Shown piece by piece: positions 17,800-63,833 of a stretch of DNA of 64,000 nt. Position 1 is the stretch's first letter, and every line of letters starts with the position of its first letter. The stretch covers positions 1,488,001 through 1,552,000 of the forward strand of contig NZ_LT629696.1 in NCBI RefSeq assembly GCF_900100265.1, read 5' to 3'. The translations under genes were made by a program, and so were the position numbers. This stretch comes from Leifsonia sp. 466MF (lineage in GTDB: Bacteria; Actinomycetota; Actinomycetes; Actinomycetales; Microbacteriaceae). The notes under the pieces were generated by a model that saw nothing but the letters and a program-made list of their open reading frames with translations, searched no databases and had not been told where the DNA came from.

Positions 17800-18969
17800 G
17801 TGCTCGCTGCAGAACCCGCAGTGCTCGTCCTCGAAGACGGAAAACGGTACGTCGGCCGGGCCTACGGCGCCCGCGGGCGCACGCTCGGCGAGGCCGTGTT
17901 CGCCACCGGGATGACCGGGTACCAGGAGACGCTGACCGACCCGTCGTACGCGGGCCAGATCGTCCTCATGACGGCGCCGCACATCGGCAACACCGGCACG
18001 AACGACGAGGACATGGAGTCGCGCCGGATCTGGGTCGCCGGCTACGTCGTGCGCGAGCCCAGCCGCGTCGTCTCCAACTTCCGCGCCCAGCGGAGCCTCG
18101 ACGACGACCTGGTCGCCCAGGGCGTCGTCGGGATCAGCGGCATCGACACGCGCGCCGTGACCCGTCACATCCGTTCGGCCGGTGCCATGCGCGCCGGCGT
18201 CTTCTCCGGCGACGACTTCGCGCTGAGCGACAGCGAGCAGCTGGACCTGGTGCTCGCCGGAGCGCCCATGAAGGGCCGCAACCTCTCGGCCGAGGTGTCG
18301 ACGATCGAGCCGTACACCGTCCCGGCCGTCGGCGAGAAGGTCGGCTCGGTGGCCGTCCTCGACCTCGGCGTGAAGAAGTCCACGCTGGAGAACCTCGCCG
18401 CCCGCGGGCTCGACGTCCACGTCCTCCCGCAGCAGGTGTCCGCGCAGGATGTGCTCGACCTCGGCGTCTCTGCACTGTTCTTCTCGAACGGCCCCGGCGA
18501 CCCCCAGGCCTCCGACAAGCATGTCGCGCTCCTGCAGGAGACCCTGCGCGCCGGGCTGCCGTACTTCGGCATCTGCTTCGGCAATCAGCTGCTCGGCCGC
18601 GCGCTCGGCCTCGACACTTACAAGCTGCCGTTCGGTCACCGTGGGATCAACCAGCCGGTGCTCGACAAGCGCACCGGCCGTGTGGAGATCACCGCGCAGA
18701 ACCACGGCTTCGCGGTGAAGGCGCCGATCGACGCGTCCTTCGACTCGCCCGCCGGCTTCGGCCGCGTCGAGGTGAGCCACTTCTCCCTCAACGACAACGT
18801 CGTCGAGGGCCTGAACTGCCTCGACCTGAACGCCTTCAGCGTGCAGTACCACCCCGAGGCTGCCGCGGGCCCGCATGACGCCAACTACCTCTTCGACCGC
18901 TTCCTGGACATGGTCAGGGCGCAGCACGCCGACCGGTCCGCCAGCACCGAGAACCAGGAGAACGCCTGA
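17800..18969 (+). CDS. carA: Carbamoyl-phosphate synthase small subunit
   Basis: Glutaminase subunit supplying ammonia to CarB. The 389-residue product has the N-terminal CPSase domain ([20 protein letters not shown]) and a class I amidotransferase domain with the nucleophile Cys259 in [11 protein letters not shown] and the His/Glu pair in [16 protein letters not shown] at 17800 directly follows the preceding stop. The carAB pair serves both pyrimidine and arginine synthesis. Confidence 0.97.
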
Positions 18970-21900
18970 TGCCCAAACGCCAAGACATCCAGTCGGTCCT
19001 GGTCATCGGCTCCGGGCCGATCGTCATCGGCCAGGCGGTCGAGTTCGACTACTCCGGCACCCAGGCCTGCCGCGTGCTGAAGGCGGAGGGCGTCCGCGTC
19101 ATCCTCGTCAACTCCAACCCGGCGACGATCATGACCGATCCCGACTTCGCCGACGCGACCTACGTCGAGCCGATCACCTGGCCGGTCATCGAGACGATCA
19201 TCGCCAAGGAGCGCCCGGACGCGATCCTCCCGACCCTGGGCGGACAGACGGCGCTCAACGCGGCCATGCAGCTGCACGAGCACGGCATCCTCGAGAAGTA
19301 CGGCGTCGAGCTGATCGGCGCGAAGTTCGAGGCGATCCAGAAGGGCGAGGACCGCCAGATCTTCAAGGAGCTCGTCGTGGAGGCGGGCGCCGAGGTCGCG
19401 CGCTCGCACATCGCCCACACGGTGGATGAGGCCCTCGAGTTCGCCGAGGACCTCGGCTACCCGCTCGTGGTCCGGCCCTCGTTCACGATGGGCGGACTCG
19501 GCTCGGGCTTCGCGCACACCCCGGAGGAGCTCCGCCGCATCGCCGGCGACGGCATCCACCAGAGCCCGACCAGCGAGGTGCTCCTGGAGGAGTCGATCCT
19601 CGGCTGGAAGGAGTACGAGCTCGAGCTCATGCGCGACACGGCCGACAACACGGTCGTCGTCTGCTCCATCGAGAACGTCGACCCGGTCGGCGTGCACACC
19701 GGCGACTCGATCACGGTCGCCCCGGCGCTCACGCTGACCGACCGCGAGTACCAGCGGATGCGCGACATCGGCATCGACATCATCCGCGCGGTGGGCGTCG
19801 ACACCGGCGGCTGCAACATCCAGTTCGCGGTGAACCCGGAGAACGGCCGCATCATCGTCATCGAGATGAACCCGCGCGTCTCCCGCTCCTCGGCGCTCGC
19901 GTCGAAGGCGACCGGCTTCCCGATCGCGAAGATCGCGGCGAAGCTCGCCATCGGCTACCGGCTGGACGAGATCCCGAACGACATCACCAAGGTGACCCCG
20001 GCGAGCTTCGAGCCGACGCTCGACTACATCGTCGTCAAGGTCCCGCGATTCGCGTTCGAGAAGTTCCCCGCCGCCGACCCGACGCTGACGACGACCATGA
20101 AGTCGGTCGGCGAGGCGATGGCCATCGGCCGCAGCTTCAGCTCGGCGCTGCAGAAGGCGCTCCGGTCGCTCGAGAAGCGCGGCTCGTCGTTCCACTGGGG
20201 GCCGCAGACGCGCACCGTGGACGAGCTGCTCGACTCGATCGCGACGCCGACCGACGGCCGCATCGTCGACGTCCAGCAGGCGCTGCGCCTCGGCGCGACG
20301 CCGGAGCAGGTGTTCGAGGCCACGAAGATCGACCCCTGGTTCATCGACCAGATCGTCTTGATCAACGAGGTCGCCGACCAGATCCGCGACGCCCCGACGC
20401 TCGACACCGACACGCTGCGCTACGCCAAGGACCACGGGTTCTCGGACGCGCAGATCGGCGAGCTGCGCGGCTTCGGCGAGGCGGACGTGCGCGAGGTGCG
20501 TCACATCCTCGGTGTCCGGCCGGTGTACAAGACGGTGGACACCTGCGCTGGCGAGTTCCCGGCGCTCACGCCGTACCACTACTCCAGCTACGACCTGGAG
20601 ACCGAGGTGGAGCCGAGCGACAAGCGCAAGGTCGTCATCCTGGGCTCCGGGCCGAACCGCATCGGGCAGGGCGTCGAGTTCGACTACTCGTGCGTGCACG
20701 CGTCGTTCGCGCTGCACGACGCCGGGTTCGAGACGATCATGATCAACTGCAACCCGGAGACGGTGTCGACCGACTACGACACCAGCGACCGGCTCTACTT
20801 CGAGCCGCTGACGCTGGAGGACGTGCTGGAGATCATCCACGCGGAGTCGCAGTCCGGCGAGCTCGTCGGCGTGGTCGTGCAGCTCGGCGGGCAGACGGCG
20901 CTGGGGCTCGCCAAGGGCCTCGAGGCCGCGGGCGTCCCGATCCTCGGCACCACGCCGGAGGCCATCGACCTGGCGGAGGAGCGCGGACTGTTCTCCGGGA
21001 TCCTCGACGACGCCGGTCTGGTCGCTCCGCGCAACGGCACCGCCGTCGACTTCCCGAGCGCCTCGCACGTCGCCGAGCAGATCGGCTACCCGGTGCTGGT
21101 GCGTCCGAGCTTCGTTCTCGGCGGTCGTGGCATGGAGATCGTGTACGACAGCGCGTCGCTCGCCGACTACTTCGAGCGGGTCGCGGGCCAGGGCATCGTC
21201 GGCCCGTCGCATCCACTGCTGGTCGACCGCTTCCTCGACGACGCGATCGAGATCGACGTCGACGCCCTGTTCGACGGCGAGCGGCTGTACATCGGCGGCG
21301 TGATGGAGCACATCGAGGAGGCCGGCGTCCACTCCGGCGACTCATCGTGCACCCTCCCGCCGATCACGCTCGGCCGCCGCGAGATCGACCGCGTGCGCGA
21401 GGCCACACGGAAGATCGCCGAGGGCATCGGCGTGCGCGGCCTGCTGAACGTGCAGTTCGCGATCGGCGCGGGCGTGCTCTACGTGCTCGAGGCCAACCCG
21501 CGCGCGTCGCGGACGGTACCGTTCGTCTCGAAGGCGCTCGGCATCCCGCTCGCCAAGGCGGCCTCGCGCATCATGGTCGGCGAGACGATCGCCGACCTGG
21601 TCGCCGAGGGTCTGCTGCCCGATCAGGACGGCTCGCGCATCCCGATGGACTCGCCGGTCGCCGTGAAGGAGGCCGTGCTGCCGTTCAAGCGGTTCCGGAC
21701 GAAGGAGGGCACGGTCGTCGACTCGGTGCTCGGCCCGGAGATGCGCTCGACCGGTGAGGTCATGGGCATCGACAAGGACTTCCCGACGGCGTTCGCGAAG
21801 AGCCAGTCGGCCGCGTACGGCGGCATGCCGCTCGGCGGGACAGCGTTCGTGTCCGTCTCCGACCGCGACAAGCGGGCTGTTGTGCTCCCGGTGCTCCGGC

Positions 21901-22256
21901 TGCACCAGCTCGGCTTCGAGATCGTCGCGACCGAGGGAACGGCCGAGGTGCTGAACCGCAACGGCATCGCGGCCCGCATCGTGCGCAAGCACAGCGAGGC
22001 CCAGGAGAGCGGCGGCGACTCGATCGTCGACATCATCAACCGTGCCGAGGTGGATGTGGTGATCAACACCCCGAGCGGGCGGTCCGCCCGCGCCGACGGG
22101 TACGAGATCCGTGCCGCGGCGGTCGCGGCGGACAAGCCGCTCTTCACGACCATCGCCGAGCTGAGCGCCGCTGTCGCGTCGCTGGACGCCATCCGCGAGG
22201 GCTTCGACGTGAAGTCCCTCCAGGAGTACGCCGTCGAGAGGGCCGCCCGAGCATGA
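18969..22256 (+). CDS. carB: Carbamoyl-phosphate synthase large subunit
   Basis: ATP-dependent synthetase, 1095 residues, with two homologous halves each containing an ATP-grasp domain (N half: [20 protein letters not shown] half: [19 protein letters not shown]) and a C-terminal MGS-like allosteric domain ([26 protein letters not shown]), where UMP and effectors act in the family. Full length. It shares one base with the carA stop and overlaps pyrF by 4 bases. Confidence 0.98.
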
Positions 22257-23215
22257 CGACCCCTGCTCCCGCAGCCGACAGTTCCGGAGTTTTTCCGTCC
22301 GACACGCCGGTGGCGGGCCGAAAAACTCAGGAGCCGTCGGCCGGGCGCGGGGCGCGGTTCGGGGAGCGCCTCGCGGGGGTGTTCGCCGAGGAGGGGCGGC
22401 TGTGCGTCGGCATCGACCCGCACGCGCACCTGCTCGAGGCCTGGGGGCTCCCGGCGTCGGCCGACGGCCTCCGCTCCTTCGGGCTCACGGTGGTGGAGGC
22501 CGCAGCCGGCCGGGCGGGGATCGTCAAGCCGCAGGTGGCCTTCTTCGAGCGCTTCGGCGCCGCGGGCTACGGAGCGCTGGAGGAGGTGCTGGCCGCCGCT
22601 CGTGCCGCCGGTCTCCTGGTGATCGCCGATGTCAAGCGCGGCGACATCGGCACGAGCGTCACGGCCTACGCGGAGGCGTGGCTGACTCCCGGGTCTCCTT
22701 TGGAGGCCGACGCGATGACCGTCGCCGCCTACCAGGGGGTCGGGTCGCTCGCCGACGCCATGGCGCTGGGGGAGCGGGCCGGCAAGGGACTCTTCGTCCT
22801 GGCCGCGACCTCCAACCCGGAGGCGGCGGATGTGCAGCAGGCCGTCGTCCGCTCCGGGCTGCGGGCGGGACAGTCCGTTGCTCGTGCGATCATCGAAGAC
22901 GTGCATTCGTTCAATCAGGAGCAGCCGGGCGGCGCGCCCTTCGGATCGGTCGGGCTGGTGCTCGGCGCGACCGTCGAGCTCGCCCACTACGGGATCGATG
23001 TGGCGACGGCGGGGGAGCGGACACCTGCACTCCCGGTGCTCGCGCCCGGATTCGGGCACCAGGGCGCCCGGGTCGAGGATGCGCCGCGGCTGTTCGGTTC
23101 GCTCGCGGCCGGTGTGATCGTCAGCGAGTCGCGCGGGCTCCTCACGGCAGGGCCTACGGGTCTGGCCGACGCGATCGCGCGTCGCGCCGAGGAGGTGCGG
23201 TCCGCGCATGTCTGA
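22253..23215 (+). CDS. pyrF: Orotidine 5'-phosphate decarboxylase (type 2), with an inserted palindromic element
   Basis: Decarboxylates OMP to UMP, the end of the de novo pathway. The 320-residue product has the type 2 active site [14 protein letters not shown] (catalytic Lys128) and [19 protein letters not shown]. Residues 8-30 are encoded by a 67-bp palindromic element ([20 protein letters not shown]) that also occurs in priA in the same frame; the conserved enzyme begins after it ([20 protein letters not shown]). ATG at 22253 overlaps carB (ATGA); without this start, no ribosome binding site fits. Overlaps gmk by 8 bases. Confidence 0.94.
22274..22340 (+). repeat. Coding palindromic element, copy A (in pyrF)
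   Basis: 67 bp that match the priA copy at 27559-27625 in 60 of 67 positions. The element is a near-perfect inverted repeat with ~25-base arms (CGACAGTTCCGGAGTTTTTC on the left) around a ~14-base loop. It is in frame with pyrF. The AT-rich GTTTTTC/GAAAAAC core stands out in this high-GC gene and suggests insertion. Confidence 0.85.
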
Positions 23216-24152
23216 GGCCGCATCCACCCGGGAGGCCGCCTCCCTGCGCCCCGCACCGCCCGAGGTCGACCGTCAGGCCGCCTCGCAGGCCGCCGTCGCC
23301 GCGCGCCGCGCACGTGCCGCGGTGAAGGCCGCGATCGCGTCGCGCGAGGTGTCGCCGCTCGTCGTGCTCGACCGCGCGACCGCCGACCCGGAGGGTGTCG
23401 AGGGGCGGCTGCGGGTGACCGAGTTCCTGCTCAGCGTGCCCGCCATCGGCACGACGAAGATGCAGGAGGCGCTGGACCGCCTCGCCATCTCGCCCGCGAA
23501 GCGCCTCGGCGGCCTGGGGCGCCACCAGCGGCTCCGGCTGCGCCAGTACCTCATCGAGCGCGAGAACCGCAGCGCGCGCCAGCGCAACCGGCTGGTCGTT
23601 CTGGCCGGTCCGACCGCGGTCGGCAAGGGCACCGTCTCCACCTACATCCGGGAGCACTATCCCGACGTGCTGCTGTCGGTCTCCGCGACCACGCGTGCGC
23701 CGCGCCCGGGCGAGGTCGACGGGATCAACTACTACTTCGTTGACGACGCCGAGTTCGACCGGATGATCGCCGCCGGCGAGCTGCTCGAGCACGCCACCGT
23801 GCACAACGCCTACCGCTACGGCACGCCGCGCGCTCCGATCGAGAAAGCCCTCGCCGCAGGGCGCAGCGTGCTGCTGGAGATCGACCTCCAGGGCGCCCGC
23901 CAGGTGCGCGAGTCGATGCCGGAGGCACGCCTGATCTTCCTCCTCCCGCCGACTTGGGACGAACTGGTGCGGCGCCTCATCGGGCGTGGCACGGAGGATG
24001 CGGCCGAGCAGCAGCGACGCCTGGAGACGGCGAAGGTCGAGCTGGCCGCCCAGGACGAGTTCGACTACAAGGTCGTCAACCACGACGTCGCCGAGGCGGC
24101 CCGCGAGGTCGTAGACTTGATGAAGGTCCGTGCGGCGCCAGGGCGTCCATGA
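23208..24152 (+). CDS. gmk: Guanylate kinase fused to an N-terminal actinobacterial IHF (mIHF-like) domain
   Basis: The 314-residue product has two parts. Residues ~25-125 resemble mycobacterial integration host factor ([58 protein letters not shown]), a helix-two-turn-helix DNA-binding protein. From residue ~129 it is guanylate kinase, with P-loop [11 protein letters not shown] (134-144), [17 protein letters not shown] and [12 protein letters not shown]. In mycobacteria these are two adjacent genes; here there is no stop between them. ATG at 23208 overlaps pyrF by 8 bases. GMP phosphorylation is secure; DNA binding by the fused part is inferred. Confidence 0.93.
24112..24117 (+). promoter_or_regulatory. 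Putative -10 box (TAGACT) for rpoZ inside gmk
   Basis: TAGACT occurs near the 3' end of gmk, about 135 bases before rpoZ, and matches the recurring -10 hexamer of this window. It would give rpoZ expression independent of the pyr operon. Weak without a -35 box. Confidence 0.3.
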
Positions 24153-24252
24153 CCTTCCTCCGCGCCGTCGCCGGCGCGCCCACCGTCCTCGGCCGCCTCT
24201 CGCGGTCGTCCGATCCGGCCCAGCGCCCGATCGCCCAGAGCAAGGAGCATCC

Positions 24253-24513
24253 ATGGCCACCAGCAACAACGGCATCATCGACCCGCCCATCGACGACCTC
24301 CTGTCGCGCGTCGAGTCCAAGTACGCGCTCGTGATCTTCGCGTCCAAGCGGGCCCGCCAGATCAACGACTACTACGCCGACCTCCACGAGGGCAGCCTGT
24401 TCGACAACGTCGGCCCGCTGGTCGACTCGTCCGTCGACGACAAGCCGCTGTCGGTCGCGCTCCACGAGATCAACGAGGACAAGCTCGTCCTGAAGCCGAT
24501 CGCCGCCGAGTAA
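24253..24513 (+). CDS. rpoZ: DNA-directed RNA polymerase omega subunit
   Basis: Small subunit that helps assemble the beta' subunit. The 86-residue product has the conserved [20 protein letters not shown] and [11 protein letters not shown] segments near the N terminus. ATG at 24253 is preceded by AAGGAG at good spacing; the open frame upstream is not conserved. The gmk-rpoZ-coaBC-metK-priA order is typical of actinobacteria. Confidence 0.95.
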
Positions 24514-24583
24514 GACAGAGGCAGAAGACAACACCGCAGGACGACCGCAGCCGGGAGGCCCCGGCCGAGGAGAGGTGCCGCCG

Positions 24584-25918
24584 TTGAGCCCACGATTGAC
24601 CATCGTCGTCGGAGTGACCGGCGGCATCGCTGCGTATAAAGCCGTCGGTGTCATCCGCGCCCTGGTCCTCGAGGGTCACTCGGTGCACGTGGTCGCGACG
24701 GAGGCCGCTCTGCGGTTCGTCGGCAGGCCGACGCTCGAGGCGATCAGCCGCAACCCGGTCGCGACCGACCTGTACGAGGGCGTCGCCGAGGTCCGTCACG
24801 TCGCGATCGGCCAGTCGGCCGACCTGATCGTCATCGCACCGGCCACGGCGAACACCATCGCCAAGCTCGCCGCCGGCCTGGCAGACGACCTGCTCGGCAA
24901 CACCGTCCTCGCGTCCACCGCGCCTCTGGTCATCGCGCCCGCGATGCACACGGAGATGTGGCGGAACCCGGCCACGGTCGCGAACATCGCAACTCTGCGC
25001 AGCCGCGGCGTCACGGTCGTCGGGCCGGCGAGCGGTCAGCTGACCGGCGCCGACTCCGGCCCCGGCCGCATGGAGGAGCCGGAGGTCATCGTCCGGGCCG
25101 CCCTGCGTGCCGCCGGGGCGATGCCGCGCGCGGTCGAAGCCCCCGCTCACGCGCCCGCCGCCCTTCCCGCGGGGTCCGCGGCCGAGGCCCCCGCGGTGAA
25201 CGACGTGGTGGTGCTCTCCGAGCGACGCCGCGCCAACGAGGCCGCCCGGCGCCCACGCGGCGGCGTGGACCTCGCCGGGAAGCGCGTGGTCATCACCGCC
25301 GGGGGGACGCGCGAGCCGCTCGATCCCGTCCGCTTCCTCGGCAACCGGTCCAGCGGTCGACAGGGCGTCGCCATCGCCAGTGCCGCGCAGGCTCGCGGCG
25401 CCGACGTCGTGCTCATCGCCGCGCACCTCGAGGTGGAACCGCCGGAGGGCGTCGAGCTCATCGAGGTGCAGACCGCGCTCGAACTGCAAGAGGCGGTCGA
25501 GGAGGCCGCCCGCGCCGCCGACGTCGTCGTCATGACGGCGGCCGTCGCCGACTACCGTCCGGCCGAGACCCGCGAGGCCAAGATCAAGAAGTCGGACCAC
25601 GGCGACACCCTGACGCTGGAGCTGGTGGCCAACCCCGACATCCTCGCCGGGCTCTCCGCGCACAAGCGCGACGATCAGGTCGTCGTCGGGTTCGCGGCCG
25701 AGACCGAGCCGGACCCGCAGGCTCTCATCGAGCTCGGCCGCACCAAGCTCGCCGCCAAGGGCAGCGACTTCCTCGTGCTCAATCAGGTGGGCTGGTCGCA
25801 GGGCTTCGCAACGGAGAGCAATGAGGTCGTGGTCCTGCGCAAGGGCGGCGATATAGTGATGGAGGCCTCGGGCAGCAAGCTGTCGGTGGCCGACCGTATC
25901 CTCGACGTCATCGCGTAA
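24584..25918 (+). CDS. coaBC: Bifunctional phosphopantothenoylcysteine decarboxylase / phosphopantothenate--cysteine ligase
   Basis: Two consecutive steps of CoA synthesis. The N-terminal flavoprotein half shows GVTGGIAAYKAVGVIRAL and PAMHTEMWRNPA; the ligase half starts near residue 225 with ITAGGTREPLDPVRFLGN and includes AAVADYRPAE and KIKKSDHGD. Between them is an Ala/Pro-rich linker of about 45 residues. The position of the E. coli CoaC active-site Cys reads LTGADSGPGRM, without Cys, which I believe is usual in actinobacteria. TTG at 24584 was chosen because GAGGAGAGG ends 8 bases before it; GTG at 24575 overlaps that site. Confidence 0.93.
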   Translation: MSPRLTIVVGVTGGIAAYKAVGVIRALVLEGHSVHVVATEAALRFVGRPTLEAISRNPVATDLYEGVAEVRHVAIGQSADLIVIAPATANTIAKLAAGLADDLLGNTVLASTAPLVIAPAMHTEMWRNPATVANIATLRSRGVTVVGPASGQLTGADSGPGRMEEPEVIVRAALRAAGAMPRAVEAPAHAPAALPAGSAAEAPAVNDVVVLSERRRANEAARRPRGGVDLAGKRVVITAGGTREPLDPVRFLGNRSSGRQGVAIASAAQARGADVVLIAAHLEVEPPEGVELIEVQTALELQEAVEEAARAADVVVMTAAVADYRPAETREAKIKKSDHGDTLTLELVANPDILAGLSAHKRDDQVVVGFAAETEPDPQALIELGRTKLAAKGSDFLVLNQVGWSQGFATESNEVVVLRKGGDIVMEASGSKLSVADRILDVIA

Positions 25919-25978
25919 ACACGCTTGCGCCGGAGGAGTCCGGTCGTGAGACAAGCGCCCCGTCGACCAGGGAGAACA

Positions 25979-27172
<1,194 letters not shown>

Positions 27173-27174
27173 CG

Positions 27175-29250
27175 GTGGCGGCGGCCGGACGGGTCGCCCG
27201 GGTGGTCCTCGACTCGCCGCTCCCGCAGCTCGACCACCTCTTCGACTACAGCATCCCCGAGGAGCTCGCCGCCGAGGCGCAGCCGGGCGTGCGCGTGCGC
27301 GTTCCGCTGCGCTCGGCAGGCCGCGTCGCGGACGGCTATCTGGTCGAGGTCGGCGAACCGGACGACGGGTACGACGGGACGTTGAGCCCGCTGGAGGCCG
27401 TCGTCTCGCCCGCGCAGGTGCTCACGCCCGGCGTGTGGCGGCTGGCGCGGCGGCTCGCGGATCGGAGCGCCGGTACGGCGAGCGACATCCTGCGCCTGGC
27501 CGTCCCCGGCCGGATGGTGCGCGTCGAGAAGGCGTGGCTCTCGGCGCGATCCGCCGCCGCCGACAGTTCCGGAGTTTTTCGGCCCGACACGCCATCGGAG
27601 GGCCGAAAAACTCAGGAGCTGTCGGGGGCGGCCGTGGCGGTGCGCGGGTACGGAGAGCGGGTGCTGGAGGATGCGGTCGCGCGCGACGAGCGGATCGCGC
27701 TGCGCGCCATCCCGCGTCTCGTGCCGTTGCCCGACGGCACCTGGGTCGGCGAGTGGGCGGTCACTCTGGCGACGCTGGCCGCCGACTGCTGGCGCGGCGG
27801 CCGCACCGCGATCGTCGCCGTTCCCGATCACCGCGACTTGGAGCAGCTGGCCGCAGCACTCGCGGTCAGCGCGCCCGCGCACGCGGTCGTGCGCGCCGAC
27901 GCCGGGCAGGCGAACCCCGACAGGTACCGCGGCTTCCTGGAGGCGCTCTCCGGCCCGCGCATCGTCATCGGCAACCGCTCGGTCGTCTACGCCCCCGCCG
28001 AGCGGCTCGGCCTGATCGCGGTCTGGGAGGACAGCGACCCTCTGCACGCCGAGCCGCTGAGCCCGTACGTGCACACGCGGGATGCGGCCCTCGTCCGGCA
28101 GGAGCTCGAGGGCTGCGCACTCGTTCTGAGCGGCAACATCCGCAGCGTTGAGGCACAGCGCCTGGTGGAGCTCGGCTGGCTGCGCGACATCGCGCCGGAG
28201 CGCATCCAGACTCCCAAGGTGGTGCTCACCGCCAACCAGCAGGCGCCCGAGCCGATGGCCCGCGCCGCACGCATCCCGTCAACAGCCTGGCGCGCCGCCC
28301 GTGAGGCGCTCAACGGCGAGAGCGGACGGCCGCGCGGCCCGGTGCTCGTGCAGGTCGGGCGCCCTGGCTACGCTCCGGTGATCGCCTGCGCGAACTGCGG
28401 CCAGGCGGCGCGGTGCATGAACTGCAAGGGCGCGCTGCACCAGACGCGGGCGGGCTCGCCGCCGTCGTGCACCGTCTGCGGCCGGCTCGCGACCGACTGG
28501 CAGTGCGAGCACTGCGAGCACCGGCGGTTCCGGCTCGTCACCGTCGGCTCGGGCCGCACCGCGGAGGAGCTGGGACGCGCGTTCCCCGGCACGCGCGTCA
28601 TCCTCGCCGACGGCGATCATCCCGTGCAGCGCGTCGGGTCGGCGCCCGCGCTCGTCGTCGCGACCCGTGGCGCCGAGCCGATCGCCGAGGGCGGGTACCA
28701 GGCGGTGCTGCTGCTGGACGGCGAGCGGATGCTGGCGCGCGAGAGCCTGCACGTCGCCGAGGACTGTCTGCGCTGGTGGCAGAGTGCGGCCGGGCTCGCC
28801 GCACCCGGCGCCCCGACCGTCCTGGTCGGCGTCGGGGGACCGCTGGCGCGCGACTTCGCGACCGGGCGCCTGGTCGAGTTCGCGCACGAGGAGCTGGTGG
28901 ACCGCCGCGAGCTGCGCTTCCCGCCCGCGGTGCGTCTCGCCTCGGTCACCGGGTCGGAGGCCACCGTGACCGAAGTGCTGGATGCGGTGGACCGCTCCCT
29001 CCTCATCGACGTCCTGGGGCCCGCGCCGGTGGAGGCGGAGGGTCCATCGGCGCGCGCCGCCCGCTCCGGGCCCGACCTCGTCCGCGCCGTGCTGCGGTTC
29101 GAGTACGCGCACGGCGCTGACGTCGCGGCGTCCGTCCGTGCCGCCGTCGTGAAGAACGCGACCCGACGTCGTCGCGCGCCGGCGGGACGGCCGGGCTACC
29201 GTCCGGCGCCGACGCTCCGGGTGCGCTTCGACGATCCCGAGATCCTCTAG
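27175..29250 (+). CDS. priA: PriA-like primosomal protein N', helicase-degenerate, with an inserted palindromic element
   Basis: The 691-residue product has the PriA 3'-DNA-binding domain (VVLDSPLPQLDHLFDYSIP), a helicase-like body, and the zinc cluster ACANCGQAARCMNCKGALH / CTVCGRLATDWQCEHC. The Walker A motif expected in the helicase body (GxxGSGKT) is absent; the region reads WRGGRTAIVAVPDHRDLEQL. Loss of helicase motifs is characteristic of actinobacterial PriA. Residues 129-151 come from the same 67-bp palindromic element found in pyrF, located in the linker after the DNA-binding domain. GTG at 27175 is 2 bases after metK; GTG 27202 is an alternative. Confidence 0.9.
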   Translation: MAAAGRVARVVLDSPLPQLDHLFDYSIPEELAAEAQPGVRVRVPLRSAGRVADGYLVEVGEPDDGYDGTLSPLEAVVSPAQVLTPGVWRLARRLADRSAGTASDILRLAVPGRMVRVEKAWLSARSAAADSSGVFRPDTPSEGRKTQELSGAAVAVRGYGERVLEDAVARDERIALRAIPRLVPLPDGTWVGEWAVTLATLAADCWRGGRTAIVAVPDHRDLEQLAAALAVSAPAHAVVRADAGQANPDRYRGFLEALSGPRIVIGNRSVVYAPAERLGLIAVWEDSDPLHAEPLSPYVHTRDAALVRQELEGCALVLSGNIRSVEAQRLVELGWLRDIAPERIQTPKVVLTANQQAPEPMARAARIPSTAWRAAREALNGESGRPRGPVLVQVGRPGYAPVIACANCGQAARCMNCKGALHQTRAGSPPSCTVCGRLATDWQCEHCEHRRFRLVTVGSGRTAEELGRAFPGTRVILADGDHPVQRVGSAPALVVATRGAEPIAEGGYQAVLLLDGERMLARESLHVAEDCLRWWQSAAGLAAPGAPTVLVGVGGPLARDFATGRLVEFAHEELVDRRELRFPPAVRLASVTGSEATVTEVLDAVDRSLLIDVLGPAPVEAEGPSARAARSGPDLVRAVLRFEYAHGADVAASVRAAVVKNATRRRRAPAGRPGYRPAPTLRVRFDDPEIL
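27559..27625 (+). repeat. Coding palindromic element, copy B (in priA)
   Basis: Matches copy A in 60 of 67 bases. The left arm (27561-27585) pairs with the right arm (27600-27624): 23 Watson-Crick pairs, one G-U and one mismatch, with a 14-base loop. It is read in the same frame as in pyrF, giving ADSSGVFRPDTPSEGRKTQE. It lies in a variable linker of PriA. Confidence 0.87.
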
Positions 29251-29301
29251 GAGCCGACCCCGGGCTGCCGCCGCTCGCGGCCGGTCGTGAGCTTCGCAGA
29301 G

Positions 29302-29307
29302 TAGGCT
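29302..29307 (+). promoter_or_regulatory. Putative -10 box (TAGGCT) for fmt-rsmB
   Basis: TAGGCT lies 33 bases before the fmt start in the 90-base gap after priA. It matches the recurring hexamer; no clear -35 box. Confidence 0.4.
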
Positions 29308-29340
29308 GGGTGGCCGTCCCGAACCGAAAGAACCTTCTCC

Positions 29341-30282
29341 ATGCGCATCGTCTTCGCCGGAACGCCGGCCGTCGCCCTCCCGTCCCTGGAGGCCGTCGCG
29401 GCCCGGCACGAGGTGGTCGCCGTCGTCACCCGTGAGGATGCGCCGCTCGGCCGCAAGCGCGTGCTGACCCCGTCGCCCGTCGCGGAGGCTGCAGAGCGTC
29501 TCGGGCTACCGGTGATCAAGGCGAACCGGCTCGGCGACGACGTGACCGAACGCATCGCCGCCCTGCAGCCCGACCTCGGCGTGGTGGTGGCGTACGGCGG
29601 CCTGGTGCGCGAGCCGCTACTGTCGCTTCCGCGCCTCGGCTGGGTCAACCTCCACTTCTCCCTGCTCCCGCGTTGGCGGGGCGCCGCGCCTGTGCAGCGC
29701 GCCGTGATCGCCGGGGACACCGAGACCGGCGCGGCGGTCTTCCATCTCGTGCCGGAGCTCGACGCGGGGGATGTGTACGCCGAGCTGCGACGTCCCATCG
29801 GCCCGGATGAGACGGCCGGCGAGTTGCTCTCCGCCCTGGCCGAGGAGGGCGCGGCCCTGCTGGCCGACACCGCCGACGCGCTGGCCGCGGGCACGGCCGC
29901 CGCGACGCCCCAGGAGGGTGAAGTCACGCTGGCGCCGAAGCTGACGCTCGAGGATGCGCGCCTCGACCTCACCGAACCGGCCGAGCGGGTCTCCGCGCGG
30001 CTGCGCGGCGTGACGCCGGAGCCGGGCGCGTTCGTGCTGCTGGACGGCGAGCGGTTCAAGGTGCACGAAGCGCGGACGACCGACGGCGAGGAGCCCGTGG
30101 CTCCCGGCGCGGTCGAGCTGCGCGGCAAGCGGGTGCTCGTCGGGACGGGGACCGCTCCGCTGGAGCTCGTCACCGTCCAGCCGGCCGGGAAGCGCGCGAT
30201 GCCGGCCGCCGACTGGCTGCGCGGTGTCGCCTCCGCGTCGGCCTCCTCCGCTGCCGGATCGACCGGGGTGGTGTTCGCATGA
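29341..30282 (+). CDS. fmt: Methionyl-tRNA formyltransferase
   Basis: Formylates initiator Met-tRNA with 10-formyl-THF. The 313-residue product begins MRIVFAGTPAVALPSLEA and has the catalytic motif NLHFSLLPRWRGAAPVQ with Asn and His, and the Asp in ELDAGDVY. The C-terminal tRNA-binding domain is present. Overlaps rsmB by 4 bases (ATGA), a common fmt-rsmB pairing. Confidence 0.97.
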   Translation: MRIVFAGTPAVALPSLEAVAARHEVVAVVTREDAPLGRKRVLTPSPVAEAAERLGLPVIKANRLGDDVTERIAALQPDLGVVVAYGGLVREPLLSLPRLGWVNLHFSLLPRWRGAAPVQRAVIAGDTETGAAVFHLVPELDAGDVYAELRRPIGPDETAGELLSALAEEGAALLADTADALAAGTAAATPQEGEVTLAPKLTLEDARLDLTEPAERVSARLRGVTPEPGAFVLLDGERFKVHEARTTDGEEPVAPGAVELRGKRVLVGTGTAPLELVTVQPAGKRAMPAADWLRGVASASASSAAGSTGVVFA

Positions 30283-31709
30283 ACGCGCCGCGCGATGACC
30301 GCAACCGCGACCGCCGGCCCCGCCCGCGTTCTGGTCCGCCGCAGACCCGCGTCCAGCCCGCCCGCCAGGTCGCCCTCGACGTGCTGCAGGCCGTCAGCGA
30401 CTCCGACGCCTACGCCAACCTCCTCCTTCCGACGCGCATCGCCCGCGCCGGGCTCTCCCCGGCGGATGCCGGCCTCGCCACTGAGCTGACCTACGGCACG
30501 CTGCGGATGCAGGGCTACTACGACCGGGTCATCGCCATCGCGGCGGGCCGTGACGTCGACCGGATCGACCCGCCCCTCCTCGACGTGCTGCGGCTGGGCG
30601 CGCACCAGCTGCTGTCGATGCGCGTCCCGTCGCACGCGGCGGTCAACGAGTCGGTCGGGCTGGCGCGCAGCGTCGGCAGCCGCTCGGGTACCGGCTTCGT
30701 GAACGGCGTGCTGCGCGAGATCGGCCGCCACACTCCCGACGAGTGGCGGGATGAGGTGGCGTCGCGGGCGAAGAACGACGACGACCGCCTGTCGGCGCTG
30801 TACTCGCATCCCGTCTGGGTGGTCCGCGCGCTGCGCCGATCGCTCGACGCCGAGGGCCGGGCGGAGGAGTTGGAGCAGCTCCTGGAGGCCGACAACACCG
30901 CGCCGCGGGTCAACCTCATCGCACTGCCCGGTCTCGTCGACAAGCCGGACGACGCGCGCGACGACCGTTTCTCGCCTCCCGGCTTCACCGTCGGCGGCGG
31001 CGACCCGTTCGGGATCGTGGAGAAGACCGAGGGACGCATCCGCGTGCAGGACGAGGGCTCGCAGCTGGCTGCCCTCGCGCTGACCCGCGCGGAGCCGGTG
31101 CGGCCGGGGGAGCGCTGGCTCGACCTGTGCGCCGGCCCCGGCGGGAAGGCGGCTCTGCTCGCCGCCGAGGCGCTGACCGGCGGCGCGACCCTGGTCGCGA
31201 ACGAGCTGGTCCCCGCCCGCGCCGAGCTGGTGCGACGCGCGCTCGCTCCGGTGCCGCTGGAGGTGCCGGTCTGGGAGCTGGACGGCACGGTCGTCGGCGC
31301 CGAGCATCCCGAAGCGTTCGACCGCATCCTGCTCGACGCCCCGTGCACCGGGCTCGGCGCGCTCCGTCGCCGGCCGGAGGCGCGCTGGCGGAAGAGCCCA
31401 CGGGATGTCGCCGAGCTGACCGCGCTGCAGTCGGCGCTGCTCGACTCGGCCATCGCCGCTCTGAAGCCCGGCGGCCTGCTCGCCTACGTGACCTGCTCGC
31501 CGCACCTCGCCGAGACCCGAGGTGTCGTCGCCGACGCGCGCGAGCGCCACGGCGACCTGCTCGAGCCGCAGGCGACCGCCGACACCCTGCAGTCCATCGC
31601 CGTCGAACGGCTCGATCTCGCGGGCGAAGGCGACACCGTCCAGCTGTGGCCGCACCGGCACCTCACCGACGGGATGTTCGTCGCGCTGCTCCGCAAGCGC
31701 TCCGCCTAG
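30279..31709 (+). CDS. rsmB: 16S rRNA (cytosine-967-C5)-methyltransferase
   Basis: The 476-residue product has an N-terminal NusB-like RNA-binding domain (ARQVALDVLQAVSDSDAYAN to about residue 150) and a C-terminal SAM methyltransferase domain. The SAM motif is LDLCAGPGGKAALLA; the two catalytic cysteines are in LLDAPCTGLGALRRRPEARW and AYVTCSPHLAET. The first ~25 residues are Arg/Pro-rich and probably disordered. Confidence 0.94.
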   Translation: MNAPRDDRNRDRRPRPRSGPPQTRVQPARQVALDVLQAVSDSDAYANLLLPTRIARAGLSPADAGLATELTYGTLRMQGYYDRVIAIAAGRDVDRIDPPLLDVLRLGAHQLLSMRVPSHAAVNESVGLARSVGSRSGTGFVNGVLREIGRHTPDEWRDEVASRAKNDDDRLSALYSHPVWVVRALRRSLDAEGRAEELEQLLEADNTAPRVNLIALPGLVDKPDDARDDRFSPPGFTVGGGDPFGIVEKTEGRIRVQDEGSQLAALALTRAEPVRPGERWLDLCAGPGGKAALLAAEALTGGATLVANELVPARAELVRRALAPVPLEVPVWELDGTVVGAEHPEAFDRILLDAPCTGLGALRRRPEARWRKSPRDVAELTALQSALLDSAIAALKPGGLLAYVTCSPHLAETRGVVADARERHGDLLEPQATADTLQSIAVERLDLAGEGDTVQLWPHRHLTDGMFVALLRKRSA

Positions 31710-31712
31710 GCT
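31707..31712 (+). promoter_or_regulatory. Putative -10 box (TAGGCT), leaderless rpe
   Basis: TAGGCT overlaps the rsmB stop and ends 6 bases before the rpe ATG. If used, transcription would start at or next to the start codon, giving a leaderless mRNA. Confidence 0.5.
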
Positions 31713-31718
31713 GGAGTC

Positions 31719-32411
31719 ATGGCTTCGACCCCTTCCGCCGACCGGATCGACCCGCGTGTCCGCATCAACCCCAGCATCCTGGCCGCCGACTTCGTCAACA
31801 TGCAGAGCGAGGTCGCGCGCATCGCGACCGCCGACCTGGTGCACGTCGACGTGATGGACAACCACTTCGTCCCTAACCTCACGTTCGGGCCGCAGATGGT
31901 GGGCCGCATCCAGGATGTGAGCCCCATCCCGCTGGATGTGCACCTGATGATCGACGACCCGGACCGCTGGGCGCCGGGGTACGCGGAGCTCGGAGCGTAC
32001 TCGGTGACCTTCCACGCCGAGGCTGCGCACGATCCCATCGCTCTGGCGCGCCGCCTGCGCTCGATCGGCGCGCGGGCGGGCATCGCGGTCAAGCCGGGCA
32101 CCGGCGTCGAGCCCTACCTCGACCTGCTGGAGGAGTTCGACCAGGTGCTCGTCATGACGGTCGAGCCGGGGTTCGGCGGCCAGTCGTTCATGCCGGAGAC
32201 CATGCCGAAACTGAACGCGCTCCGGCAGGCCGTCGAGGCGCGGGGTCTCGACGTGTGGCTGCAGGTGGACGGCGGCATCACCGAGGAGACGATCGTCACG
32301 GCGGCCGCGGCCGGGGCGGACACGTTCGTGGCGGGCTCCAGCGTCTTCCGCGGAGAGCCGGCGGACCGCATCGCGGCCCTCCGTGCCGCTGCGCTGCCGC
32401 ACCTCCACTGA
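31719..32411 (+). CDS. rpe: Ribulose-phosphate 3-epimerase
   Basis: Interconverts ribulose 5-phosphate and xylulose 5-phosphate in the pentose phosphate pathway. The 230-residue TIM barrel shows [30 protein letters not shown] with metal ligands, [24 protein letters not shown] and [10 protein letters not shown]. Standard length. The spacing to the -10 box and lack of a normal ribosome binding site position suggest leaderless expression. Confidence 0.97.
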
Positions 32412-32432: not shown

Positions 32433-32495
32433 CGCACATTCGTGCCGAATGTGCGGAATCAGCGCGGCATACCGCACATTCGGCACGAATGTCCG
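32433..32495. promoter_or_regulatory. Two 23-bp dyads forming a long inverted repeat before hisE
   Basis: Each unit is CGCACATTCG-N3-CGAATGTGCG: a perfect dyad at 32433-32455 and one with a single mismatch at 32473-32495. Their centres are 40 bp apart. The two units together also form 21-base perfect outer arms (32436-32456 with 32472-32492). The second unit ends 19 bp before the hisE -10 box. It could be a double operator or a terminator after rpe; there is no T-run. Confidence 0.6.
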
Positions 32496-37148: not shown

Positions 37149-37214
37149 CCGTCGAGTCCGCAAACTTTGCACGCCCGCGCCCGCGAAACCGTGCAAAGTT
37201 TGCGGACTCGACGG
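37149..37214. repeat. Perfect 25-base inverted repeat between trp genes
   Basis: Arms 37149-37173 and 37190-37214 are exact reverse complements around a 16-base loop. Each arm contains its own small dyad (GCAAACTTTGC / GCAAAGTTTGC). There is no T-run. It lies 37 bases after the membrane-protein gene and 43 bases before the next -10 box, so it may terminate or attenuate the his-trp transcript or be a protein site. Confidence 0.8.
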
Positions 37215-52575: not shown

Positions 52576-52628
52576 GTGGGGCGCGACACGCCGTTATGCG
52601 GCGCGCATAACGGCGTGTTGCGTCCCAC
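52576..52628. terminator. Bidirectional hairpin between convergent genes
   Basis: 25-base arms (52576-52600 and 52604-52628) with only two G-T pairs and a 3-base GCG loop. The inner 15 bp, ACACGCCGTTATGCG, are perfect. It lies between the ABC permease (plus) and the EamA gene (minus) and probably terminates both; no T-run. Confidence 0.7.
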
Positions 52629-57622: not shown

Positions 57623-57674
57623 GTTGACGCAACACGCCGTCCGCGCCGAGCGCGGGACGGCGTGTCACGTCAAC
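57623..57674. terminator. Bidirectional hairpin between convergent genes
   Basis: Arms of about 24 bases (57623-57646 and 57650-57674) pair with two weak positions and one bulge around CGA. It separates xfp (plus) from the SGNH hydrolase (minus). It shares the core ACACGCCGT with the hairpin at 52576. Confidence 0.65.
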
Positions 57675-59028: not shown

Positions 59029-59046
59029 TCACCCGACCGCATCCCG

Positions 59047-59104
59047 CGAGGTGCACGTTGTTGCGCCCGCGCACGGCGTGTCGGCCGCAAGAACGTGCAC
59101 CTCG
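59047..59104. terminator. Bidirectional hairpin between convergent genes
   Basis: 19-base arms (59047-59065 and 59086-59104) match in 18 positions around a 20-base loop. It lies between the VOC gene (plus) and the secreted protein (minus). Confidence 0.6.
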
Positions 59105-59127
59105 CCGAGGACGCGGAGGGGCGGAGG

Positions 59128-63776: not shown

Positions 63777-63833
63777 AGATTTGCGCCAAATCTCGGTTAT
63801 GCGCACTCCATAACGACGATGTGGCGCAAATCT
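63777..63833. terminator. Bidirectional nested palindrome between convergent genes
   Basis: 25-base arms (63777-63801 and 63809-63833) match in 21 positions; the outer 12 are perfect. Each arm contains an internal dyad, for example GATTTG-CGC-CAAATC. It lies between the response regulator (plus) and the thioesterase gene (minus). Confidence 0.65.

Follow-up and report, generated by a model that had tools for sequence, protein, structure and literature searches.

Dispersed palindromes at gene 3′ ends in Leifsonia, a few of them read in frame within unrelated proteins

The best-known cases of palindromic elements lying in frame within genes come from Rickettsia and Wolbachia. The Rickettsia palindromic elements (RPE) of Ogata et al. 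(2000, 2002) are described in the reviews PMC10969869 and PMC2229807, and the available text of PMC2267715 likens a coding stem-loop family, Cod-2, to them. Here we describe a palindromic element, family 1, of the actinobacterium Leifsonia sp. 466MF, beginning with two copies in a stretch of 64,000 bases (genome positions 1488001-1552000; hereafter the window). An original prediction, made from this DNA alone, had proposed that the element was inserted in frame into pyrF and priA and had named RPE as the precedent, which our results bear out as far as behavior is concerned. In open-licence PubMed Central, where subscription papers mostly lie outside the coverage, we found no earlier description of elements of this kind from any actinobacterium, Leifsonia included. 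The evidence below leads us to think that these are probably dispersed gene-3′-end palindromes, perhaps serving as bidirectional terminators that lack a U-tract, which are homogenized and are rarely captured in frame. Both the function of the palindromes and their mobility, the latter as originally proposed, are what we infer from where the copies lie and how they vary.

In-frame copies in pyrF and priA

The two segments that were originally singled out, 22274-22340 and 27559-27625 of the window, are 90% identical by BLAST over all 67 bases, in keeping with the 60 matches that had been counted. The strong hairpins claimed for them are likewise supported, with predicted RNA folds of −40.8 kcal/mol for the pyrF copy and −49.1 kcal/mol for the priA copy (z = −5.9 and −9.8 against dinucleotide shuffles), neither of which was equaled in 200 shuffles. 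Both segments are open and are read in one common frame within the pyrF and priA open reading frames (ORFs), as predicted. The insert peptide forms residues 8-30 of the 320-amino-acid PyrF ORF and, as ADSSGVFRPDTPSEGRKTQEL, residues 129-151 of PriA, numbered from the GTG at 27175 that we picked as the priA start for this analysis. Once outer bases common to other copies are added, both elements measure 74 bp, the first occupying 22271-22344 (plus strand) in the N-terminal tail of PyrF and the second 27556-27629 (plus strand) in the linker that follows the 3′BD domain of PriA. The sequence GAGTTTTTC occurs four times in the window, compared with 0.01 occurrences expected from shuffling.

Comparison with relatives shows that the pyrF copy is a lineage-specific in-frame insertion. 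Three of 28 Leifsonia genomes (G000, which is the genome studied here, G267 and G404) carry the insert at the identical site, and the other 25 have a short form of PyrF, such as ATGACGTTCGGCGACCGG in G412. The alternative that the two segments are conserved protein sequence instead of insertions is therefore ruled out. Nor, among the sequences viewed, did both segments recur at matching positions of PyrF and PriA in distant genera, an outcome that would have spoken against the original prediction. Homology searches with PyrF gave 7,986 matches; among the 120 listed, P0121 and P0122 carry the insert by eye, the first 29 N termini and the long ones having been viewed. In PriA, the linker is 16-17 amino acids long in many congeners and its inserts vary within the genus. 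Among 120 listed PriA proteins, text patterns assign the family-1 peptide to the linker of 6 and a peptide of the SGDQMS type, which apparently stems from a different palindrome, to that of 13; the latter count leaves out P0276 and P0307 as chance-looking from 15 matches to the F8-like pattern.

Other features of PriA linkers were seen in passing. The PriA homologue P0256 has a linker of 241 amino acids that consists largely of repeated SGDQMSP-type units, apparently amplified from a different palindrome family. Between convergent genes of G404 (C1:1336745-1336805) lie tandem GAGTGGCGACATGATGTCGCACCTCGGG units that are apparently akin to the linker repeats in PriA of other species. The priA gene of G401 (L136, L137) is returned by tblastn as two pieces around the linker, possibly reflecting a frameshift or an assembly error.

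The first host gene, pyrF (22253-23215, plus strand), encodes orotidine-5′-phosphate decarboxylase (Pfam PF00215, E 3e-24). Its ATG overlaps the stop codon of the upstream neighbor carB (18969-22256, plus strand; Pfam CPSase domains), and the match of PyrF to the solved structure 3v75 begins at residue 35, past the element. The second host gene (27175-29250, plus strand) encodes a priA-like primosomal protein with a 3′BD domain (PF17764) at residues 9-111 and matches to PriA structures in the Protein Data Bank, such as 6dcr. No known RNA family was found up to E 1 in positions 20000-30000 of the window, and a scan for Rho-independent terminators over positions 20000-32000, a stretch that holds just these two copies, called neither of them.

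A 48-copy family at the 3′ ends of genes

A lack of further copies in the genome would have refuted the original prediction, and 46 more were found. On the single contig of 4,141,347 bases, GAGTTTTTC occurs 85 times, compared with 2 occurrences of the reversed control, and family 1 comprises 48 palindromes of about 73 bp each. To arrive at this number, 50 centers were compiled by hand from a pattern search and BLAST, and two partnerless half-sites (779733 and 2538788), which have little beyond GAGTTTTTC in common with the arm, were dropped. With the pyrF copy as query, the BLAST matches listed include 75 at 40 distinct places, each of them a compiled palindrome; no longer parental element was among these matches, for which 40 of 66 candidates were scored and to which the pattern search alone added 8 of the 48 copies. 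The arm consensus is CAAGCCAACAGCTCCTGAGTTTTTC and the loop is 23-24 nt long. At 11 of the 25 arm positions the consensus base is present in 95 or 96 of the 96 half-sites, six of these positions being invariant. Compared pair by pair, the inner arms have a mean identity of 0.93 and the loops one of 0.50. The loops are nonetheless non-random, as the exact motif CGACACGCC is found in 14 of 48, compared with 0.05 expected and no more than 2 in any of 200 shuffle sets.

Conserved inverted arms around a variable spacer, in copies that are dispersed, mostly extragenic and specific to species groups, would also be expected of a REPIN (an inverted pair of repetitive extragenic palindromic, or REP, sequences) or a miniature inverted-repeat transposable element (MITE) that is moved in trans by a REP-associated tyrosine transposase (RAYT) or a related insertion sequence. 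We consider this explanation extremely improbable, since the Y1 transposase domain PF01797 was detected in 0 of 28 Leifsonia genomes (5 of 14 in the positive control), no transposase family besides Y1_Tnp having been searched; as to Y1 transposases, it is rejected. A search with one near-consensus intergenic copy found no copy on plasmids, and among phages just 20-bp matches in 3 records. Copying by reverse transcriptase is unsupported as a general cause, as the domain RVT_1 (PF00078) is present in 2 of 28 Leifsonia genomes and absent from G000. The two loci are G267:C1:1734118-1736050 (L300) and G406:C18:233241-233744 (L299), and G267 is also the genome with the most exact family-1 cores (88).

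Where do the copies lie? According to gene calls based on codon usage at a score cut-off of 20, every one of the 44 non-coding copies has a stop codon no more than 30 bp away; 33 are between convergent genes, 11 are behind co-directional genes and none is in a divergent gap. The background of gene pairs at the same loci is 41 convergent, 168 co-directional and 70 divergent (n = 279). These calls come from a home-made caller that was trained on these loci and used on other genera without retraining. The same preference appears when families are disregarded: among gaps of 15-400 bp in seven Leifsonia stretches of 220-240 kb each, strong inverted repeats are present in 51 of the 134 between convergent genes, 24 of the 592 between co-directional genes and 1 of the 173 between divergent genes (Fisher p = 4e-24 and 2e-20). 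These counts come from a hairpin rule that ignores loops of fewer than 4 bases, so that at the least the F3 palindrome at 52576-52628 of the window and the corresponding one in G267 are missed. At 24 loci of relatives that matched the covariance model described below, two of them from G267, 10 are convergent, 13 co-directional and 0 divergent, with 1 scored within a gene, and a stop codon is close by in most, not all.

The original view of an in-frame element thus stands in part. Four copies are coding and all are read in one frame, but reading in frame is the exception (4 of 48) and the main habitat is the gene 3′ end, with 33 of 44 non-coding copies between convergent genes. Since the 3′-end habitat is accompanied by several families with species-specific arms, as described below, a terminator-like role at 3′ ends may exist besides, or instead of, pure selfishness. 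It is also possible, though we think it rather unlikely, that these are purely selfish mobile palindromes that, like RPE, insert anywhere and survive where harm is small, namely at 3′ ends and in flexible protein segments. Such a palindrome could account for the in-frame copies in four unrelated proteins, the element-like inserts in the PriA linker and racemase loop of several species, and the differences in presence and in family at orthologous slots. Simple avoidance of harm, however, predicts less than is seen, for family 1 is missing from divergent gaps, and its excess in convergent over co-directional gaps arises where the two kinds of gap have a similar median width. Pure selfishness also fits poorly with the failure to find Y1_Tnp (one transposase kind sought) in the 28 genomes, a longer parent among the matches or a plasmid or phage copy.

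Besides pyrF and priA, the coding copies are in an Asp/Glu-racemase-like gene (PF01177; copy center 3879451) and in a gene for a GH38 alpha-mannosidase, where the copy, with decayed arms, lies at the N terminus (center 3899882). The family consensus, when read in the coding frame, contains a stop codon (TGA, within TCCTGAG), and many intergenic copies have one TGA in that frame; coding copies have TCCGGA in the left arm. The combination of this left-arm G with a retained consensus base in the right arm characterizes 3 of 4 coding copies versus 1 of 44 non-coding copies (p = 0.0009). In pyrF and in the mannosidase gene, whose start was chosen here, the copy directly follows a start codon that overlaps the preceding stop codon.

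The inserts lie in segments of the host proteins that are disordered according to structure models. The racemase copy falls between a helix and a strand in the AlphaFold model. In P0001, a 98%-identical racemase homologue, the predicted local-distance difference test score (pLDDT) is about 61-64 at residues 111-130 and at least 90 at 217 of 284 residues, being low in the C-terminal tail as well. Residues 130-151 of the PriA model have pLDDT below 50 and are one of six such segments. Among racemase homologues (1,039 matches), 18 of the 120 listed have an element-like insert according to a text pattern, some resembling another dialect of the arms.

Arm dialects and shared slots

The arm sequence differs between groups of species. 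Exact matches to the core CTCCTGAGTTTTTC number 73 in G000, 88 in G267, 36 in G404, 12 in G408 and 6 in G412, and the other 23 genomes have none; TTCCTCACTTTCTC occurs 49 times in G360, 35 in G409 and 17 in G402, with none in the other 25; and TTCCTCAGTTARTCC occurs 9 times in G385, with none in the other 27. Reversed controls for these cores gave 0 in every genome. Some coding copies match the local variant, such as GTTCTTC/GAACAAC in PriA of G412 and GTTGTTCGACCC in the racemase of G408.

Beyond these genomes, a covariance model (R1) matched at least 22 of 398 genomes of the taxonomic family, the genome studied here included, and at least 11 of 85 genera, both being lower bounds from a search with at most 12 candidates per genome and strict filters, in which the weakest matches may be unrelated hairpins. 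The exact 18-base arm was present in 20 stretches of a named genome collection from which the genome itself was possibly excluded: 12 are Leifsonia (L. virtsii and Leifsonia sp. C5G2), and the other 8 are isolated, chance-looking occurrences in other bacteria, none named Rickettsia. Palindromes of like build with different arms were also noticed in other genera (L091, L092 and L095 in genus g58; L096 and L103 in genus g50), as was a 92-bp palindrome in G254 of genus g17 (L097, 961-1052) that has, close to its tip, a CGACACGCC-like sequence together with the reverse complement.

Such arms could be an inverted pair of binding sites for a sequence-specific protein of the nucleoid, partition or DNA-uptake type, with the dialects tracking the protein. 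This would explain arm conservation beyond the needs of pairing, as well as the dialect pattern, and uptake sequences are known to pair in terminators, according to the available text of PMC1852404. We nevertheless judge a protein-binding site to be quite unlikely, given that there are almost no unpaired half-sites (2 of 50 centers), that uptake sequences typically number 1,000 or more according to the same source, compared with about 50 copies here, and that at least six other palindrome families occupy convergent gaps. A DNA-uptake sequence in particular was judged unlikely, as unpaired sites are nearly absent.

These other families emerged from a de novo search, which yielded eight palindrome families (F1-F8, F1 being family 1) when all seven stretches are taken together, six of them (F1-F6) in that of G000. 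The families were distinguished by eye and their members recognized with text patterns, the G414 palindrome CGCCGAGCACAGG being put in F2 by resemblance. In the window, two lie in co-directional gaps, namely the F4 palindrome CATTCGTGCCGAATG at 32436-32492 (genome 1520436-1520492) and the F2 palindrome CCGTCGAGTCCGCAAACTTTGCACG at 37149-37214 (genome 1525149-1525214). Four lie in convergent gaps: the F3 palindromes CGCGACACGCCGTTATGCG at 52576-52628 (genome 1540576-1540628) and GTTGACGCAACACGCCGTCC at 57623-57674, the F6 palindrome GCGAGGTGCACGTTGTTGCG at 59046-59105 and the F5 palindrome GATTTGCGCCAAATC at 63777-63833. Outside the window, a further convergent gap (genome 1606187-1606269, L237) holds a tandem pair of GAAGGCCCCCGTC hairpins of a different, terminator-like type.

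Orthologous slots are shared among the families. In a comparison of seven genomes, 17 of the 23 convergent G000 gaps that were examined are occupied by a palindrome in one genome or more, and two or more families were present at 7 of these 17. At slot 1425937, for example, three families occur: family 1 in G000, G267 and G385; family 3 in G413; and family 2 in G404 and G412, as well as in G414 if resemblance is accepted. Between G000 and G267, which are close relatives, the family is the same at 10 slots and different at 1, and at 2 just one of the two genomes has a palindrome. In the slot table, six cells were filled manually (four were read off directly, and two are otherwise unclassified G404 hairpins that were judged by eye to be F3 and F6), and the seven multi-family slots are independent of them. 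Orthologous convergent slots with a palindrome (n = 55) have a median gap of 93 bp, and those without (n = 74) one of 33.5 bp; in these and the slot figures, a few palindromes with three-base loops are counted as "without". For 6 of the 8 family-1 copies of the G000 stretch there is a counterpart in G267, with arm cores that are 92-100%, loops that are 65-96% and left flanks that are 93-100% identical.

Could the hairpins simply be terminators built by the host, selected at gene ends without any movement, with arms kept alike by recombination or convergent selection? The gap-length pattern and the 3′-end distribution would both be expected in that case. Selection for a hairpin alone, however, would not fix arms of about 25 nt common to 48 copies, nor would it yield dialects specific to species groups or a lineage-specific insertion in pyrF, and within the frames of pyrF and priA a terminator would be harmful or useless. 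For these reasons we regard host-built terminators as very unlikely.

In the explanation that we favor, that of dispersed 3′-end palindromes, the hairpin at gene ends would serve bidirectionally, either terminating transcription or stabilizing 3′ ends, with termination being the likeliest. A copy process, either insertion or the conversion of one copy by another, would spread the arms and keep them alike. Occasionally a copy would land in a reading frame, where it may be retained if TCCGGAG has replaced the TCCTGAG stop and if the peptide lies in a tail or linker that is disordered, which would let the host protein tolerate the insert. More tentatively, and with the odds leaning somewhat against it, one can envision that the families, several of which have the tip motif CGACACGCC, compete for convergent slots and that arms are rewritten genome-wide to the form of the species group, coding copies included, such that protein segments would evolve by DNA dialect.

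Several observations weigh against these ideas. A U-tract is missing, as just 6 of the 88 sides of the 44 non-coding copies have a run of 8 bases at the arm edge with 5 Ts or more, and work cited in the accessible part of PMC5335608 found that mycobacterial polymerase needs a U-tract. Many convergent slots are without a hairpin, and such a terminator is therefore not indispensable there; moreover, the near-invariant arm sequence exceeds the needs of a generic terminator. At gene-call cut-offs of 30 and 40, 1 and 2 copies become divergent, because low-scoring neighbor genes drop out, and 42 and 41 of 44 copies are near a stop codon. A target-site duplication is not demonstrable, as the empty and filled sites are too diverged. 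The dialects, furthermore, are impure. G408 and G412 have 12 and 6 exact cores of the G000 type, and in G412 its own variants, GTTCTTC and GTTGTTC, stand beside the latter six. The left arm of the PriA copy in G267 and the racemase insert of L. virtsii (P0017) are off the local dialect, and because some coding copies do not follow it, their homogenization is at most suggested.

If in-frame palindromes have indeed arisen here in a second, unrelated setting, the filled and empty sites in close genomes would allow the origin of these inserts to be tested by comparing living strains. An unrecognized process that spreads or homogenizes short palindromes without a known transposase is suggested by the dialects and by the differences between slots. 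It is also possible that Actinobacteria mark gene ends in both directions with repeated hairpins that lack a U-tract, which is a matter of dispute.

Comparison with known systems

As far as the accessible portions of the sources cited here describe them, RPE resemble the Leifsonia elements in being palindromic and dispersed, in forming several families per genome and in lying in frame within unrelated conserved proteins to which they contribute a shared peptide. They are longer, at about 105-150 bp versus about 73 bp, and the present host is an actinobacterium with a 4.1 Mb genome. Nearly half of the RPE of R. conorii are coding according to review, compared with 4 of 48 copies in Leifsonia, where, unlike RPE, the other copies lie at gene 3′ ends and the arms come in dialects.

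REP sequences and REPINs with RAYT (PMC3116915) share with family 1 the mostly extragenic inverted pairs, the conserved arms and the variable middle. Leifsonia differs from these systems in that no Y1 transposase was found in any of the 28 genomes, a single arm is not hairpin-like and some copies are in frame within genes. The stem-loop families of Cozzuto et al. (2008, PMC2267715) are likewise repeated and mostly intergenic, although the available text names no Leifsonia and does not contain the word "convergent". Mycobacterial I-shaped terminators (PMC5335608) offer an actinobacterial parallel, being hairpins without a U-tract downstream of a gene; however, that type is a single local hairpin, whereas the Leifsonia element is a dispersed and nearly identical repeat, and the accessible text calls the activity of I-shaped terminators contradictory.

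Closest to the intergenic copies are the uptake-sequence terminators of Neisseria and Pasteurellaceae (Kingsford et al., 2007, PMC1852404), which are inverted pairs at gene ends that are conserved within a genus and differ between genera. Their arms are 9-11 nt long and number 1,000 or more copies, compared with about 25 nt and about 50 copies in Leifsonia, which, unlike those bacteria, has practically no unpaired copies and has several other families in the same genome. By analogy, the coding copies would work like RPE and the intergenic copies like inverted uptake-sequence terminators; since some defining features are absent in each case, we claim membership in neither group.

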